The notes beneath the pieces are model-generated. The model had not been told where the DNA came from and ran no database searches. It saw only the letters and a program-made list of their open reading frames with translations. The position numbers were made by a program, and so were the translations under genes. A stretch of DNA of 64,000 nt from positions 1 through 64,000 of the forward strand of contig CACYMQ010000005.1 in assembly GCA_902775555.1 (NCBI GenBank). The letters run 5' to 3'. How positions within the stretch are numbered: the stretch's first letter is position 1; each line of letters starts with the position of its first letter. Below are positions 1,092-8,290 of the stretch, piece by piece. The DNA comes from an uncultured Lachnospiraceae bacterium (GTDB taxonomy: Bacteria > Bacillota > Clostridia > Lachnospirales > Lachnospiraceae).

Positions 1092-1189
1092 ATGCCGTTA
1101 TTCAGGGAAGGAGGGATTCCTATGGCAGGAAGAAACAGCAGAAAGGGGGAGAAAAATCAGAGAGAAGATTGGAAATTATGTTGTAATAA

Positions 1190-1218
1190 TTGTCAAAAAC
1201 TGTTACACTAAATTATAC
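1190..1218 (+). promoter_or_regulatory. Sigma-A promoter of the riboswitch leader
   Basis: TTGTCA (1190-1195) and TTATAC (1213-1218) are separated by 17 bp. The start of transcription would be near 1225. This lies in the 449-base gene-free stretch 1039-1487, which holds a terminator, this promoter, the riboswitch and a second terminator. Confidence 0.6.
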
Positions 1219-1287: not shown

Positions 1288-1364
1288 GAATGCATTTAGA
1301 AAAATCATGGAAACGTGATGACTCAAAGCTACGAGGGCCTGTAAAATGGCAGCCAGCTGCACAT
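1288..1364 (+). promoter_or_regulatory. Cyclic-di-GMP-I (GEMM-I) riboswitch aptamer
   Basis: The stretch carries the hallmarks of the GEMM-I aptamer: a TGCA/TGCA closing helix (1291-1294 with 1358-1361), a hairpin of six pairs capped by a GAAA tetraloop (1304-1319, loop 1310-1313), then the conserved core GACTCAAAGCTA (1320-1331), GGGCCT, and the 3' signature ATGGCAGCCAG. The usual core is GACGCAAAGC; here one G is T. A terminator hairpin begins nine bases after the aptamer and the next gene starts about 80 bases later, so this is a transcription-attenuation switch on a potassium-channel operon. Whether ligand turns it on or off cannot be read by eye, and a cGAMP-selective variant (GEMM-Ib) is not excluded. 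Confidence 0.82.
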
Positions 1365-1372
1365 TTATAAAA

Positions 1373-1406
1373 CGGGCATCGTTTATTATCCGGATGCCTG
1401 TTTTTG
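1373..1406 (+). terminator. Riboswitch expression-platform terminator
   Basis: CGGGCATC (1373-1380) pairs with GATGCCTG (1393-1400), with one G-U pair, and is followed by TTTTTGTTTTG. It directly follows the c-di-GMP-I aptamer and precedes the channel gene, the usual place for a regulated terminator. Confidence 0.72.
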
Positions 1407-1487
1407 TTTTGTAGTTGTGACACTTATCTACGGGTGGGGACCAATGCGGCCGTCAGGTGATCAGTTCATTTCTTGAGGAGACCGGTT

Positions 1488-2501
1488 ATGAATGGAGTAG
1501 TCAGAAGCAGAAAGGCTGTATTATACACGGTTTTGGACGGAATATTGTCCACCGCTGTTTTGTTGATCGCTATTTTTGTCATTACCAGATATCTGGAGGG
1601 AGATTTTCAGGATTATTATTTTATGATCCTTTTTCTTACAGTAGCTTCCCAGAAGGCGATCCAGGCGCTTCTCAGGTATGAAAAGAAAGAAAAGAAAGTA
1701 GCACGTACGTTCATATCTGCAGGTATCTACCTGCTATCGACGGTTTTTTACTTTTTTTCGGACGGATCCATAGGATCGATGATATTTCTGGTTGTTTTTC
1801 TTTTCGTGGATCTGATCATCGGCAGAGTCTTTGCGACGATCAGCTGTAAAAGATGGAGATCCAGGATCCCGAATATAATGATCGGTTTGTGTTGGACATA
1901 TGGTGCGATAGACTGCATGTTCGTCAAAAGTGTGGATGAGATCGCAACGCTTGTCCTGATACTGATGGGATATATCTGCCTGCAGTGTCTGTTTCACATC
2001 ATCGCCATGTCCTTCTCCCAGATCAAGCTGAATATTCTGATGAAGATCATACGGAGAACCTATGCGTTGGAAATCCTGTTCGGACTGGGCATGCTGATCA
2101 TTTCATTCTCCTATGTTCTGCAGTTCTTTGACCGGGATACATTTCATTCATTTGGGGACGGACTCTGGTACTGCTTTGCAGTTGTAACGACGATCGGATT
2201 TGGTGATATCGCAGCGGTTTCTCTTGCGGGAAGGATCCTTTCCGTGATCCTCGGGATCTATGGGATCATCGTCGTATCATTGATCACATCGATCATCATC
2301 AATTTCTATACAGAAGTAAAGAATGATACGGATGATACGGAAGAAACAGATGATGGGATTGAAGAGAACGAGGAACAGAAGCTGGATGCAGAGATCCTGG
2401 AACTGCGTCAGAAACTGGAACTGCTGACTGAGAAGAAACAAAGGATCACGGGGAAGGATAAATCTCTCCTCAAAGACAATGAAGGGAGTAATGCTGAGTA
2501 A
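1488..2501 (+). CDS. Voltage-gated-type potassium channel protein
   Basis: A 337-residue membrane protein. The pore loop carries TTIGFGD (residues 234-240), the potassium selectivity filter, between a helix at about 196-220 and the inner helix at about 247-275. Four or five hydrophobic helices precede it (about 12-34, 43-62, 76-92, 97-117, 157-182), consistent with the two-pore-helix ion channel family with an extended N-terminus. No clear arginine-rich S4 is seen. The cytoplasmic tail (280-337) is very acidic, then coiled-coil-like, with no RCK/TrkA domain. A TTG at 1473 is in frame, but GAGGAG at 1475-1480 fits the ATG at 1488. It is the first gene after the c-di-GMP-type riboswitch, 33 bp before the next gene. 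Confidence 0.85.
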   Translation: MNGVVRSRKAVLYTVLDGILSTAVLLIAIFVITRYLEGDFQDYYFMILFLTVASQKAIQALLRYEKKEKKVARTFISAGIYLLSTVFYFFSDGSIGSMIFLVVFLFVDLIIGRVFATISCKRWRSRIPNIMIGLCWTYGAIDCMFVKSVDEIATLVLILMGYICLQCLFHIIAMSFSQIKLNILMKIIRRTYALEILFGLGMLIISFSYVLQFFDRDTFHSFGDGLWYCFAVVTTIGFGDIAAVSLAGRILSVILGIYGIIVVSLITSIIINFYTEVKNDTDDTEETDDGIEENEEQKLDAEILELRQKLELLTEKKQRITGKDKSLLKDNEGSNAE

Positions 2502-2534: not shown

Positions 2535-3878
2535 ATGGGTGATGAAACAAAAACAATGACTGAGGTTGATGCCGTGACGGAGAAGAAGGAGGGAAAAGCA
2601 GAAGAGACTGCTTCGGTGGAGGAAAAGGCGGGGGAGATCGCCTCCGTAGAGGAAAAGGCGGGGGGGATCGCCTCTGTAGAAGAAAAGGATACGGCAAAGG
2701 AAGAGAAAAAGAAGAGTAAAAAGATCTCGATGTACGATGTGACTCCGGAGAATGACACCACTAAGTTCAAGGGGATATTCTCCTATCGCCATTTCAGGAT
2801 CGCAGGATGGGTATGTATGGCGATGACTGTGGCCAGTATCATGATCGGTTGGGGAATGAAGCTGTCTCCACGAGTGACTGAGAAGTATTCCGGTGTTCAT
2901 GAGGTATTATCCTTCTTCGCTGAACTGGGGGTTTTCCTTTTCCTCTTTGCCAACTTTGCAGTGATCATTGATAAGAAATCCAGCTATAAAAAGCTTTTCA
3001 TCATGTATGGGGCTTTGGCGGGTGGATTCGTACTGCTTTTTGCTGATGTATATTATCGCTTTTTGGGCGGAATTATCGGATCGATCGGTGATGCAACAGG
3101 AAAGAGTATCAGTACTGCAGATCTGATGGGGGGAGGATTCAAGACTTTTAACGTTTTTTTGGATATGCTTCTCTGTACAGCCGTGATCTTCTTCATCGAT
3201 TACAGGCCGACCAAATATTTCGTTGGAAAGAAGCTTTACATCTTCCGGGCTTTTGTGGCGATCCCGATCCTTTATGAGCTTGTATGTATCCTTCTTAAGT
3301 ACTTTTCCACAGTGGATGGTTTGAAGCTTCATCCCATGGTGTCGCCCTTCCTTACCACAAAACCGGTACTCTGCTTCCTTCTGTTTGTCCGAATGGCCTT
3401 TTACATTAAGGGAAGGGAAACAAAGTTCCTGAAGCATGGAAAGACATTGGAGGATTACGATGCTTTCATGAAGACCAACAGGAACTCTCTCCAGTTTGCC
3501 AGAAAATTCGCCCTGATGACTTTTATCTACGGCCTTATTGATCTGGTGCTTGTGATTGTTCTGATAATTCTTCGGCTTGCAAATGCGGGAGTATTACAGG
3601 CTTTTCTGGATGCAGGGGCGGACAATCAGGAGGCTATGCAGCTGCTTGATTATGTGATTGAAGAAGCAAAGAGTATTGGCTTCGGTGGCGCTTTCTCGAT
3701 GATCTTCATTGCACCCTTCATTCTGTTCTTCTCTTATACGAAGAGCTATAAAAAGTCCAAGGTTGATACTCTGATCCCGGTTGGGGCTATCGTAGTGATT
3801 GCTCTTGTTGCAATCGAAGTCGGCCGGAAGATCCTCATGCTGATGCCGGAAAAGATTGTTAATCTGATTGGGCTATAG
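2535..3878 (+). CDS. Multi-pass membrane protein of unknown function with a repeat-bearing N-tail
   Basis: 447 residues; I do not recognise a family. Residues 1-75 are charged and cytoplasmic-looking, with three copies of a ten-residue unit beginning ASVEEK, then a lysine-rich stretch. From residue ~85 there are about eight hydrophobic segments separated by short loops. The last ones are around 380-400 and 415-435. GGGAGG precedes the ATG. It follows the potassium channel by 33 bp in the same orientation and should share the riboswitch-controlled transcript, so it may work in ion or envelope homeostasis; that is inference from position only. Confidence 0.72.
   Translation: MGDETKTMTEVDAVTEKKEGKAEETASVEEKAGEIASVEEKAGGIASVEEKDTAKEEKKKSKKISMYDVTPENDTTKFKGIFSYRHFRIAGWVCMAMTVASIMIGWGMKLSPRVTEKYSGVHEVLSFFAELGVFLFLFANFAVIIDKKSSYKKLFIMYGALAGGFVLLFADVYYRFLGGIIGSIGDATGKSISTADLMGGGFKTFNVFLDMLLCTAVIFFIDYRPTKYFVGKKLYIFRAFVAIPILYELVCILLKYFSTVDGLKLHPMVSPFLTTKPVLCFLLFVRMAFYIKGRETKFLKHGKTLEDYDAFMKTNRNSLQFARKFALMTFIYGLIDLVLVIVLIILRLANAGVLQAFLDAGADNQEAMQLLDYVIEEAKSIGFGGAFSMIFIAPFILFFSYTKSYKKSKVDTLIPVGAIVVIALVAIEVGRKILMLMPEKIVNLIGL
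2610..2687 (+). repeat. 30-bp in-frame tandem repeat in the membrane-protein N-tail
   Basis: Two full 30-bp units (2610-2639 and 2640-2669) and a partial third (2670-2687) encode ASVEEKAGEI, ASVEEKAGGI and ASVEEK. Length changes would stay in frame. Confidence 0.8.
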
Positions 3879-3953
3879 ACTTTTCCCCGGTGGGAGAAAA
3901 ATAATGTGCAGGACTAAAAACTACTCTGACAATGAAGAAAGAAGGGAACGTAT

Positions 3954-4353
3954 ATGAAGATCACAACATTTAACCCGTTTATTTCCACATCACACGCTGA
4001 TGAGACGATTCGTTTGTTTGAAGAGCTGGGCTTTGAAAGAACCCATAAAAAAGTGGGAATTGAGATAGCAGAAAGGGATGATACGGTTATCCGGATGAAG
4101 GACGCGAATGGATTCCATCTCGATATCCTGCAGCCGGAGGGTGAGTTGCCACGGGATATGGTGGGGATTCGTGGTGGGGATTCGTGTGAATGTGGACAAC
4201 TTTGATGAAGCATATGAACTGCTGAAAGAGCGTGGCTTCAGGAATGCCTATGGTGATGAGACGGTGAGTACCGCTTCTTCCAAGGCTGCAATGATGATCT
4301 CTCCCTCGGGTTTCAGCATTTGCATCGTCAAGCATATCATAGAAAAGAAATAG
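3954..4353 (+). pseudogene. Glyoxalase/VOC-fold protein, frameshifted by a 13-bp tandem duplication
   Basis: The first frame (3954-4205) begins like a small VOC/glyoxalase domain (MKITTFNPFISTSHADETIRL) and ends abruptly after 83 codons. The second half continues in another frame (VNVDNFDEAYELLKERGF to the stop at 4353). At the junction, a 13-bp unit occurs twice in a row (4160-4172 and 4173-4185). Removing one copy restores one frame of 128 residues, reading DMVGIRVNVDNF through the joint, a normal length for a single VOC domain. The family includes isomerases, dioxygenases and resistance proteins; no metal ligands were assigned. A GAAGGGAA ribosome site precedes the ATG. It could be decayed, switchable or an assembly error. 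Confidence 0.85.
4160..4185 (+). repeat. Perfect 13-bp tandem duplication
   Basis: GGTGGGGATTCGT occurs at 4160-4172 and again at 4173-4185. Thirteen is not a multiple of three, so the duplication breaks the VOC-protein frame. Confidence 0.95.
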
Positions 4354-4418: not shown

Positions 4419-7400
4419 ATGAGGTTAAAAAGAAGGATTCAATGTACAGCGGTCCTGTCAGCGCTCTGCGTGGGAATGCTATTCCCCATGGCAGTGCAGG
4501 CAGATCCGGAGTACGAGACTAAACAGGTGGATACGTATCTTTTTGACAACGATCACAATGATACAAAAACAACACTCGTGTTTAAGAGTGATCTTCCGAC
4601 GATTCCGTATATCAATGTAGAGGACTATCTGAATACGGTCTATAAGGCAAATGACTTTGAAGCGACGAAGCAGGAAGATGGGACCTATAGGATCAAATCT
4701 GCCGCCTCAGAGTATTACATGACTGTGAATCCGGATACGGATCTGGTTACCTATAATGAGTATGCGAATTTCACCATGCAGAGGCCTGAAGCGGCTGATA
4801 ATATGGATGCTACATTTATAAAAGAAGGCGATGGTGAATTTATTGGTGGCGAAAAGCCTGCCAACTATAATCTGGGGAAATATGGCATCGATGTTATGGA
4901 GATCGACGGTGAGGTGTACTTCCCGATCGCTACCCTGAATGATATGTTCAAGGAAATCTACAATGCGGCACAGTATCTGGACGGAAATCTGTATTTCCTG
5001 CATTCTTCGGACATGGTTATGGGAAGCTGCTATTATGACAGGAAATCGCAGTTTGACCTGCTGGAAAGATCGCAAAAAGAAGCAGATTTTAACTATAACG
5101 AGCTTTGCTTTATGATGGATAATACCTATGGGGCTCCCACAAGAAGCAAGCTTGCAGAGAAGATTGTGAATGATGGCTTTGATCAGGCACTGGAATCCTC
5201 TGATAAGCTGAAGAAAGCGAAGACCTATCTTAAGTCCCAGAGCATGGTGGATTATGTTATCGGTCTTTATTATATCGGTGTAGATCTCTTCGATGGCGGT
5301 CATATGACTCCGATCCAGGATATTGCCGGTGCATTTCAGGCATATCCGAATTCACCGCTGGTACTGGGTATAATGGAGGCAATCAATTCTGATGAACGTG
5401 CCGAGGATAAAAAGGTCTGTGGTGAATATGAGGAGCTGTGTGGGGTAAGAAATGCCACACTTACCGAGGTTTCCACAGAGAAGGTGAAGACTGTCGGTTC
5501 CCAGTACAAACTGGTGAAGGAATGGGCAGACAGTAATGCAGGACTCTATGTCGCAGGAGATACCGCATTCTTTACCTTTGATAATTTCGTGATCCCGGTT
5601 GTGGAGCAGTTCAAGTGGTCTGTGGATTACGCAGCAGAAAACGGATATAAGAATTTCGTGGTGGATCTTTCCACAAACAACGGCGGTGTGACTCAGGTTG
5701 CAAGCTATATGCTGGCTCTGATGTCCAACAAGGAACGAAAGACAAATACATTTACTGATTATACCTATTATCGGGCAAGTGATGAACTGACAGCCAATAC
5801 ATCTTTGATCGATCTGAATCTGGACAAAAAGTTTGATGATGCAGATAAGGAAGTCGCATATGACCTGAACTTTGCGATTCTTGAGACCAAGTGTGCATTC
5901 TCCAGCGGTAACCTGATGCCGGTTCGAGCTAAGGAACTGGGAATCGCGATTCTGGGCGAGAACAGCGGCGGTGGCGGATGTGCGCTGCTGATCGATTTTA
6001 TGTCATGCGGATACTTCATGAATATCTCCGGTATGCCGAAGTTCAGAGCGGCAAATCCGGATACAGATGTTGATCTGGGGGCAAAGCCGGATTATGAAAT
6101 GAGCTATGATGAGATGTATGATCCGGATCTCCTTTCCTGGAAGATTCATGAGTTCTATGGTGAGACACCGGAGGGTATAACGAAGAAGAGTATGACCTAC
6201 CGCTTTTTTGAAAAAGACACTACGGGAAAGTTGAATGTTATTTTCAAGGAGGACATGCCTTCAGTTCCGTATATTGACGTGGCAGATTATATGGGCAAGA
6301 TCATGGTCCACGAGTTTAAGGAAGAAGTAAAGGACGGGAAGGTTGTAGTGTCCGGTAAACCGGGAACCTTTACAGTGGATGCCGAGAAGGATCAGGTAAC
6401 CTTCAATGATTATCATTCCATGTTGAATGACGGGAATTTCTATATCAAACCGGGCTCTGCAGGTGATATTCCATATATAAAGGCATCCACCATTGATCCT
6501 CTGGGCGAGGTGAAACCGACGACGCTTGATCTGTCGAAATATAAGATCGATCTTCTGATGGTAGACGGAAAGGCATATTTCCCGCTTACCACCATCAGCG
6601 ATCTGTTCTGCTCATCCCTTGTTTCTGCAGAATATGTGAATGGAGAGATCAACTTCGTATTTACGATGGAAAGCTTTATGACAGGGAAACTGACGGATAG
6701 CTATGTTGACAGAACCGGGCTCTATGAGACACAGGAGAGACCGGAGGATGCGGCAGAGTATACATATAATGAAATGTGCTTCCTGTTCGATACCATTTAC
6801 GGAAAACCGTCTCAATGTGAATTTGCAAATGTGATCCGGGAGAAGGGATTTGATCAGGCATTGGAGACCTATGATGAGACAACAAAACTGATCAAAGGAT
6901 TACTTCAGTCTACAGATCCGGCAGAGTTTTCCCTTGGATTAACACTGCTTCAGGGGTATATGTTTGACGGCGGACATACAACCACCAACTATGAGCTGAT
7001 CTCCGAGGTTGCCAGTGTCTACAACACCTCATGGCTTTACAACGCATGCAGTATTTTAAAATGGGCAGAACAGTATCCACAGGTAGTTGACATAGTTTTG
7101 CAGGGCCAGAAGAAAAGCGCACTTCAGCAGCAGTTCCAGGCAACACGTGCAGAGGTGTTTAAGGAGAAAGGATATCAGAAGGTATGGGAAGGGGATGGCG
7201 GATGTACGCTCTACAGAAGCGGAACGACGGTGATCTTCAGCTTTGATTCCTTTAATCAGGTGGTTACACCCTGGTTCAAGAAGGCACTGGATTATTCGGC
7301 CCAGAATGGCATTAAGAACTTTATCGTTGACCTTTCCTGCGTGATTCTTCTGTATTATGCTATATGGCAGCGGTAATGAAGAATAAGGACCGGAATTCGA

Positions 7401-8290
7401 ATGTGGCAAGTACGTTGATCCGTGATGAGGTGACAGGTGGTGAATATCGGTCGAATTTCCTCCTGGATCTGAACCTGGACGGAAAGTTCGACGATGCGGA
7501 TAAGAAAGTATATTATGACCTTGACTTTGCCGTCCTTGCGTCGCCATTTTCTTTCTCCTGTGGTAATCTGACTCCGTTTGTTGCAAAGGATCAGGGGATT
7601 ATGATCATGGGAGACAGATCCGGTGGCGGAGCATGTTCCATCATGAAAGCCTATACCGCAGACGCACATTTTATGGCAGTATCCAGCAGCCAGTATTTTA
7701 TCTGTGAAAGCGGTGCAGATGTTGACCTGGGTGTGGAAGTTGATGTTAACCTGATGAAGAAGACAGCCGACGGACAGTATGATAACAGCGCGTTCTATGA
7801 TCTCGATGCTCTCGGCAAATATATGAAAGATAATACCGGATGGTATGCGAAGAATCAGTGGCAGAAGATCGACGGCAACTGGTATTTCTTTGATAAGGAA
7901 GGTTACATGGAGGCTAACGCTTATCGTCAGGGCTATTACCTCAAGGCAAATGGCGCATGGGACGGTAAAGCAAAGGCAAAGGGCTGGAAGAAGGACAGCA
8001 AGGGCTGGTGGTACTCACTGGGAGGTAAGAACTACCTTAAGAACGGCTGGAAGAAGATTGACGGAAACTGGTATTACTTCAAGGCAAACGGCTATATCGC
8101 AGTGAGTGAATTTGTTCAGGGCTGGTGGCTTAACAAGACCGGCGCATGGAAGGATCCGGTAAAGTACAGCTGGCATAAGTCCGGCAGCAAGTGGTGGTAT
8201 GGCGTTAAGAAGGGATGGTATGCAAAGAGCGTATCCTACACCATCGACGGCAAGAAGTACACTTTTGACAAGAAGGGCTACACGAAGTAA
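4419..8290 (+). pseudogene. Large secreted S41-like protease with wall-binding repeats, frameshifted
   Basis: The protein has a signal peptide (cleavage likely after AVQA, residue ~29) and two homologous halves. Each has a domain starting near PYINVEDYLN / PYIDVADYMG, then an S41 (C-terminal-processing-type) core. In half one, VVDLSTNNGG at ~410 matches the GG loop and FSSGN at ~495 the serine region. Half two runs NFIVDLSC and then breaks: the first frame stops at 7376, and the expected continuation (MAAVMKNKDRNSN) lies in the frame of 7364-8290. Compared with half one, about 10 bp that would encode NNGG are missing near 7341. Restoring 10 bp gives one frame of about 1293 residues. The C-terminal 150 residues are tryptophan/tyrosine-rich wall-binding repeats (IDGNWYYF type). 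It would be a wall-anchored extracellular protein; half two's GG loop is lost. Confidence 0.82.

Follow-up and report, generated by a model that had tools for sequence, protein, structure and literature searches.

The DNA analysed here, a stretch of 64,000 nucleotides that we call the window, forms the start of contig C5 in the genome of an uncultured Lachnospiraceae bacterium (3.0 Mb in 96 contigs, 99.5% complete). Near this end its forward strand carries a promoter-like sequence, an aptamer, an intrinsic terminator and three genes, the second of which encodes a membrane protein that we refer to as MP447:

1181..1209, + strand: promoter-like sequence with -35 TTGTAA (1181-1186), a 17-nt spacer and -10 TACACT (1204-1209); comparative evidence
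1288..1364, + strand: c-di-GMP-I (GEMM-I) aptamer with a compact P3; A1298 at the G20 position, A1325 at A47 and C1360 at C92
A1300-U1323, + strand: lower P2 pair of the aptamer, from parsed aptamers
1337..1377, + strand: predicted antiterminator, GCCUGU (1337-1342) with ACGGGC (1372-1377); folds and swap control
1370..1410, + strand: intrinsic terminator, 1370-1380 with 1393-1403 (11 bp, loop of 12), then a U tract
1488..2501, + strand: potassium-channel gene, 337 aa (ATG at 1488, stop at 2501); Ion_trans_2 (PF07885), E 1e-11
2535..3878, + strand: MP447, a polytopic membrane protein, 33 nt after the channel gene
3954..4353, + strand: glyoxalase-like gene after MP447, split into two frames in the window

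The potassium-channel locus and its GEMM-I aptamer

A sequence-only reading of the locus had called the gene at 1488 a potassium channel on account of its selectivity filter, TTIGFGD, and this was borne out by the Ion_trans_2 match and by the nearest solved relative, Listeria Lmo2059 (4h33; E 3.3e-12), which aligns with the pore region (residues 202-285) and leaves the N-terminal membrane part outside the alignment. The C-terminal tail is acidic by inspection, and Pfam listed no RCK domain for the protein. Judged by its sequence, the gene encodes a genuine K+-channel pore protein, one of two Ion_trans_2 genes in this genome. The same filter is present at 12 of 13 more distant loci in the genus (STAGFGD in L085), and the channel of genome G219 has TTTGFGD. 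Searches of Pfam, NCBIfam and PDB yielded nothing for MP447, and a simple hydropathy scan gave nine hydrophobic segments instead of the eight helices first proposed. The frame split of the glyoxalase-like gene reflects either a mutation or an assembly error; the gene is open in Lachnospiraceae bacterium AC2029 and in G232, where its Pfam Glyoxalase match falls under the cut-off. Two further arrangements were seen in the vicinity: an HTH protein overlapping a Fic-domain protein (165-1038), a pair that resembles a toxin-antitoxin arrangement, and overlapping open reading frames at 4419-7376 and 7364-8290 that resemble a single S41-peptidase/repeat protein interrupted within the second of its S41 copies.

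Upstream of the channel, cmscan matched RF01051 (c-di-GMP-I, GEMM-I) to 1288-1364 on the + strand (model positions 1-87) with 47.3 bits against a gathering score of 35, and an E value of 3.9e-6 computed over both strands of the 64 kb and 4227 families. This was the sole match above gathering score in the window, and it confirmed the GEMM-I assignment for which the sequence-only reading had proposed a covariance search. Helix covariation was counted on the Rfam structure (P2 with its GNRA loop, and P3) in 47 distinct sequences of 48 compact aptamers (76-77 nt) from 27 genus genomes. Paired cells made up 97.6% of 799; the covariation score was 0.543 as compared with 0.220 in shuffled sets, none of 500 shuffles reaching 0.543, and structures with slid partners scored at most 0.155. 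Likewise, 143 cells were changed on both sides, as against 44.6 in shuffles; the number of pairs with a both-side change, 10 of 17, was not beyond shuffles (117 of 500). The fold of 1225-1420, proposed as a further check, gave a z of -2.87, with none of 200 shuffles equally stable, and the shorter fold of 1270-1412 stood out less, with a z of -1.50 and 16 of 200 shuffles equally stable. A chance match was ruled out by the E value together with the helix covariation, and we conclude that a GEMM-I aptamer, of c-di-GMP class I, occupies 1288-1364.

At least one RF01051 match at E<=0.001 was present in 53 of the 61 genus genomes and in 80 of the 200 genomes sampled from the family, and the window's own genome has five. 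Three of the other four in this genome precede a leucine-rich secreted-type protein and a prepilin, both so named by inspection, and a repeat protein of BspA type with an LRR_5 match, and other switches in the genus precede apparently secreted proteins, prepilins and zinc-ribbon proteins (by inspection), the downstream gene being taken as the longest same-strand open reading frame starting within 700 nt, mostly without a family search. Many aptamers of the genus have a P3 tip that is very compact (CCUGUAAAAUGG-like), 48 of the 86 aptamers in the first set being 76-77 nt long, a count that the choice of matches tilted towards compact aptamers: 80 genus matches were taken and mostly longer ones left out, so that compact aptamers are over-represented. 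As the sequence-only reading had implied, a potassium channel looks like an unusual target for this class: a limited literature search, which took in part of PMC3766115, found no report of a GEMM-I riboswitch paired with a potassium channel.

Given these features, we think it probable that the region is a transcriptional GEMM-I riboswitch, most likely responsive to c-di-GMP, that gates an operon of the K+ channel and its partner MP447.

Recurrence and the promoter-to-terminator block

At E<=1e-15, 17 of the 61 genus genomes had a channel homologue; in the family sample, with a threshold of E<=1e-30, one genome of 200 had it, the window's own. Close relatives of the channel come from AC2029 (genome G205) and from two MAGs, one of an uncultured Lachnospiraceae (G258) and one of a sheep-rumen Eubacterium (G219). 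Homologues of MP447 occur in 13 of the 61 genomes (14 loci), and the two genes are neighbours in nine genus genomes. They are co-oriented in G000, G205, G258 and G204 (the G204 MP447 match contains a TAG), and convergent, tail to tail, in G212, G236, G239, G255 and G201 (L077-L080, L082, L243-L247). That their adjacency survives a change of orientation argues that the channel and MP447 work together, and MP447 appears as a recurrent partner for an unusual channel family.

In AC2029 the aptamer, the terminator, the channel (91% identical) and MP447 (98%) follow one another in the same order as in the window. Among the 16 other channel loci of the genus, where the flanks covered reached about 1.5 kb or as far as the end of the contig, AC2029 was the only one with an aptamer before the channel; with the aptamer at 2 of 17 channel loci, which counts against the proposed control, a conserved genus-wide pairing is ruled out. 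The 14 MP447 loci comprise the window and AC2029, with the aptamer before the channel, and 12 others, which were scanned with one positive: in G232 an aptamer with A at the G20 position (A20) and an A-U lower P2 pair lies directly before a 76% identical MP447 with no channel between, and the glyoxalase-like gene follows MP447 as in the window. The channels of G258 and G219 have a promoter of the same form upstream (by reading) and no aptamer. Pairwise alignment shows that G219 has kept a 17-nt tail of the terminator, the stem being gone, and the missing aptamers may be read as losses, with insertion in the other genomes as an alternative. The genus thus provides a natural set for comparison: loci with the aptamer, loci without the aptamer but with the promoter, and MP447 alone. 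What the window presents is a known switch class at an unusual target, which recurs in a second species and is linked to the partner protein in a third.

The promoter that the sequence-only reading had placed in front of the aptamer is a poor match to the consensus (8 of 12 bases by our own count) and was unlisted by the consensus scanner, but it is supported by comparison. A counterpart is present, by reading, in all six aligned sequences, including two channel orthologues without an aptamer, and the five other than the window have TATACT or TATAAT as their -10. In the MAFFT alignment the terminator remnant of G219 was misplaced; it is visible in the pairwise alignment, which however leaves the G219 promoter unaligned. 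We infer that the window promoter is active.

Positions 1158-1409 of the window are 90.6% identical to a block in G233 that lies upstream of a secreted-type protein, and AC2029 has a second copy of the block before another secreted-type protein, 411 bp long at 94.6%. In both comparisons (window with G233, and the two AC2029 copies) the similarity stops at the terminator, while the two surface-gene copies are alike beyond it. The upstream boundary is less clean, since another block of 170 bp (89.4%), differently spaced, is common to the AC2029 copies. Identity also varied along the block: 68/71 in the promoter, 51/52 in the leader, 69/77 in the aptamer and 31/41 in the terminator against G233, and 35/71 in the promoter segment, 24/52 in the leader, 72/77 in the aptamer and 36/41 in the terminator against the AC2029 channel copy. 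The promoter-aptamer-terminator block looks mosaic in its sequence, like a portable module, and these findings suggest a riboswitch unit moving between genes. Relatives of 1270-1415, mostly the aptamer alone, were present in 25 of the 61 genomes.

The module might be a recently transferred regulator of surface proteins, brought before the channel by recombination and of little regulatory importance there. The shared blocks that end at the terminator in G233 and AC2029, the mosaic identity and the channel orthologues of G258 and G219 that lack the module all speak for this possibility, which we nevertheless regard as unlikely. Against AC2029 the aptamer and terminator have been kept while their flanks diverged, although gene conversion could mimic this; the aptamer also stands before MP447 in G232, and a similar promoter has been kept upstream of the G258 and G219 channels.

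The ligand

The binding pocket is described here in Vc2 numbering, mapped onto the window aptamer as given in the list above. The column of the intercalating A47 (A1325) is invariant in 47 of 47 compact aptamers. At the equivalent of C92 (C1360), which pairs with one base of the ligand, a set of 137 distinct aptamers parsed by pattern (from loci up to L195, 23 of them from the family sample) has C in 126 and T in four, with seven unparsed. G20 recognises the other guanine, and with A1298 at this position the window aptamer lacks that G. The same A occurs in 40 of the 137 parsed aptamers (37 of the 114 that come from the genus and the window's genome, and 3 of the 23 family-sample ones), among them both AC2029 copies and members in G222, G233, G232 and G219; by reading, two of the five own-genome aptamers have it, the window copy and L005. 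Our mapping agrees with PMC6274999 and PMC9262584.

The sequence-only reading had noticed a single base by which the aptamer core departs from the usual one and had left the choice of ligand open. The doubt about the ligand stood, but not its ground: T1323, the T in GACTC, pairs with A1300, so that the change is compensated and a defect of the core is ruled out. The doubt rests better on A1298 together with the lower P2 pair, which is C-G in 118, U-A in 12 and A-U in seven of the 137 aptamers. The two features are associated, A20 going with a lower P2 pair other than C-G (13 of 19, as compared with 27 of 118; Fisher p 1.5e-4, uncorrected for relatedness). Since changes in lower P2 influence the choice between c-di-GMP and cGAMP, and Cd1 G11, the equivalent of Vc2 G20, is a selectivity factor (PMC9262584), both A1298 and the altered lower P2 lie at selectivity positions. 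Indeed, a G20A mutant of a class-I riboswitch binds cGAMP (PMC7288161, PMC6274999), and G20 and C92 mutants bind c-di-GMP more weakly (PMC9049102). A20 weakens the case for c-di-GMP; family membership of the fold stands despite A1298, as this G is described as tuning selectivity and not as a hard filter (PMC9262584).

These observations raise the possibility that the switch is as proposed but its ligand is not, the A20, altered-P2 aptamers of the genus being adapted to cGAMP or some other cyclic dinucleotide, or else acting as low-affinity c-di-GMP sensors. Such a reading draws on the recurrence of A20, on its association with lower P2 and on the mutants just described, and also on a likeness to the cGAMP-binding GEMM-Ib riboswitches of Geobacter (pilM, Gs1761), which share with the window an A at the G20 equivalent (A14, by our own reading of PMC6274999) and an altered lower P2. 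However, the pocket-side P2 pair is C15-G40 in the Geobacter riboswitch (PMC6274999; 4YAZ) and G1299-C1324 in the window, where it agrees with the G-C of all 137 parsed aptamers; that a pocket-side C-G pair defines GEMM-Ib is likewise our own reading.

The enzymes encoded by the genome also bear on this point. Canonical GGDEF enzymes have Asp, and Hypr enzymes Ser, at the Hypr site (PMC6456294). Of 30 GGDEF matches in the genome, some of which fall within one protein, 29 cover the site (L224 does not): 23 have Asp, four Asn and two Ser. Domains with an intact GG(D/E)E(F/L) motif have Asp in 21 of 21 cases. Ser, which would favour another ligand, is confined to L221 and L225, degenerate domains that lack the GGDEF motif and are probably inactive, one of them in a protein that also carries a canonical GGDEF domain. 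Unlike the GEMM-Ib setting, no intact Hypr-type GGDEF was seen in this genome, and a search for SMODS CD-NTases, the one other type of cGAMP enzyme covered, found none. The many canonical GGDEF domains support the c-di-GMP reading of the switch. We consider a different ligand, or mere low-affinity sensing, distinctly unlikely, and c-di-GMP the likelier ligand of the window aptamer, possibly at reduced affinity. Equally slight in our estimation is the chance that a portable GEMM-I module with A20 and an A-U lower P2 pair, responding to another cyclic dinucleotide or at a shifted threshold, puts the channel operon and secreted surface-protein genes under one messenger, in which case K+ conductance would be switched together with the cell surface.

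Predicted direction of the switch and its setting

The terminator that had been placed behind the aptamer was recovered as a hairpin (1370-1380 with 1393-1403) of -15.1 kcal/mol on its own; it is absent from the list of the pattern scanner, which admits only loops of 3-8. P3 (1337-1342) and the 3' arm of the terminator both contain GCCUGU, so that ACGGGC (1372-1377) can choose between them. The predicted antiterminator uses the P3 strand in this way and encloses a hairpin of its own (1344-1352 with 1357-1366). For the window, a 94-nt intermediate folded to -25.9 kcal/mol with the antiterminator when left free, as compared with -16.4 when the aptamer was enforced; the full transcript reached -32.5 kcal/mol with aptamer and terminator together and -34.1 when free, and the free fold of 1270-1412 shows the antiterminator. 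Six members were folded in all (the window, the two AC2029 copies, G222, G233 and G246). In 6/6 the free intermediate paired the P3 strand with the 5' arm of the terminator, and in 6/6 the aptamer-enforced full transcript kept the terminator. The free full-length fold contained the terminator in five of the six and the antiterminator in the AC2029 surface copy.

In a swap control, the native downstream sequence of the window competed with the aptamer by 10.9 kcal/mol, a value reached by 2 of 30 swaps. On average the contrast was weak: over 31 of the 48 compact aptamers, those with a terminator by our own scan, the native sequence gave 6.1 and the swapped ones, which included relatives, 4.4 kcal/mol, and the mean fraction of swaps reaching the native value was 0.363. 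A family-wide proof of the antiterminator was dropped on these grounds. The alternative pairing between aptamer and terminator that the sequence-only reading had proposed to test for gained support from the enforced and truncated folds and from the window swaps; the average swap contrast lent little, and the free full-length folds were not decisive. Separately, the fold of 1225-1420 has the U tract paired with ACAAAAACAG of the 5' leader; as AC2029 has a different leader, this was put down to chance.

Folding favours, short of proof, a Cd1-like OFF switch in which the antiterminator (1337-1342 with 1372-1377) would exclude P3. Class-I switches of Clostridioides difficile are transcriptional OFF switches (PMC11477304), and Cd1, in front of the flagellar operon, works by an antiterminator/terminator OFF scheme (PMC9262584). 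Cd1 and the window's switch have in common a class-I aptamer and, by prediction for the window, a terminator able to coexist with it, an antiterminator that takes a pocket strand and the OFF direction; they differ in that Cd1 has G at the G20 position (Cd1 G11; PMC9262584) where the window has A, and controls a flagellar operon where the window has a K+-channel operon. An ON switch, in which ligand binding prevents the terminator, would resemble GEMM-Ib pilM, which is ON (PMC9262584), and would agree with the terminator seen in five of six free full-length folds. We hold it to be improbable: the terminator (1370-1403) has no overlap with the aptamer helices, both form in all six enforced folds, the P1-like pairing is weak by inspection, and the 5' arm of the terminator competes with P3. 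A short RNA that stands alone, with a promoter and terminator of its own and no relation to the gene downstream, would account for channel and surface-gene copies whose homology ends at the terminator before differing genes, but is very improbable, given that a same-strand open reading frame comes next in the window, both AC2029 copies, G233, G232 and G246 (one part of this survey covered only the aptamer strand) and that a promoter-like sequence still precedes the channel in two orthologues lacking the aptamer.

For a riboswitch controlling the channel operon in the OFF direction, we envisage the following course. Transcription would start near 1215 and the aptamer would fold first. With little ligand, ACGGGC would capture the P3 strand GCCUGU, and RNA polymerase would read through the resulting antiterminator into the channel gene. 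With ligand present P3 would be locked, so that ACGGGC would join 1393-1403 in the terminator and transcription would stop. High c-di-GMP, as in the sessile state, would then mean less K+ conductance.

In Firmicutes, the control of potassium by cyclic dinucleotides is tied to c-di-AMP, and c-di-GMP to motility, pili and adhesion. The ydaO riboswitch, which responds to c-di-AMP, exemplifies RNA control of K+ transport and acts on transporters, not on a pore-type channel. The window's switch would share with ydaO the control of potassium traffic by a cyclic-dinucleotide RNA, but ydaO is unrelated to it in aptamer class and ligand, and the target in the window is a pore-type channel. The association of c-di-GMP with motility, pili and adhesion may be compared in PMC11477304. 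A further parallel is the mstX-yugO operon of Bacillus subtilis, in which MstX and a putative K+ channel are under SinR, a regulator of planktonic and sessile states (PMC3667857); that operon is under a protein repressor, the channel operon of the window probably under an RNA switch. Since the yugO channel promotes biofilm in B. subtilis (PMC3667857), a link between c-di-GMP and a K+ channel is worth testing. If it holds, c-di-GMP would be coupled, through a GEMM-I switch in front of a pore-type K+ channel, to membrane potential or to osmotic state; the locus suggests, short of proof, that ion flow across the membrane is under the control of this messenger.

Finally, we noted additional elements in the leaders of the AC2029 loci. 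In AC2029 the switch could be bypassed by TTGACA-17-TATGCT, read by eye as another promoter-like sequence, which separates the terminator from the channel. Both AC2029 loci (L006, about 3860-3916; L153, about 592-648) also contain, between the GEMM-I terminator and the gene, an additional hairpin with a run of T and the sequence GTCAGGTTYGGCGG, each copy preceded by TTGACA-17-TAYGCT (by eye), and a similar hairpin stands before the G258 channel. This hairpin had no Rfam match in the scanned loci, and its motif was not found in the window. At L153, GAGCA pentamers are repeated in the leader between the promoter-like sequence and the secreted-type gene, a run that could be unstable in length.
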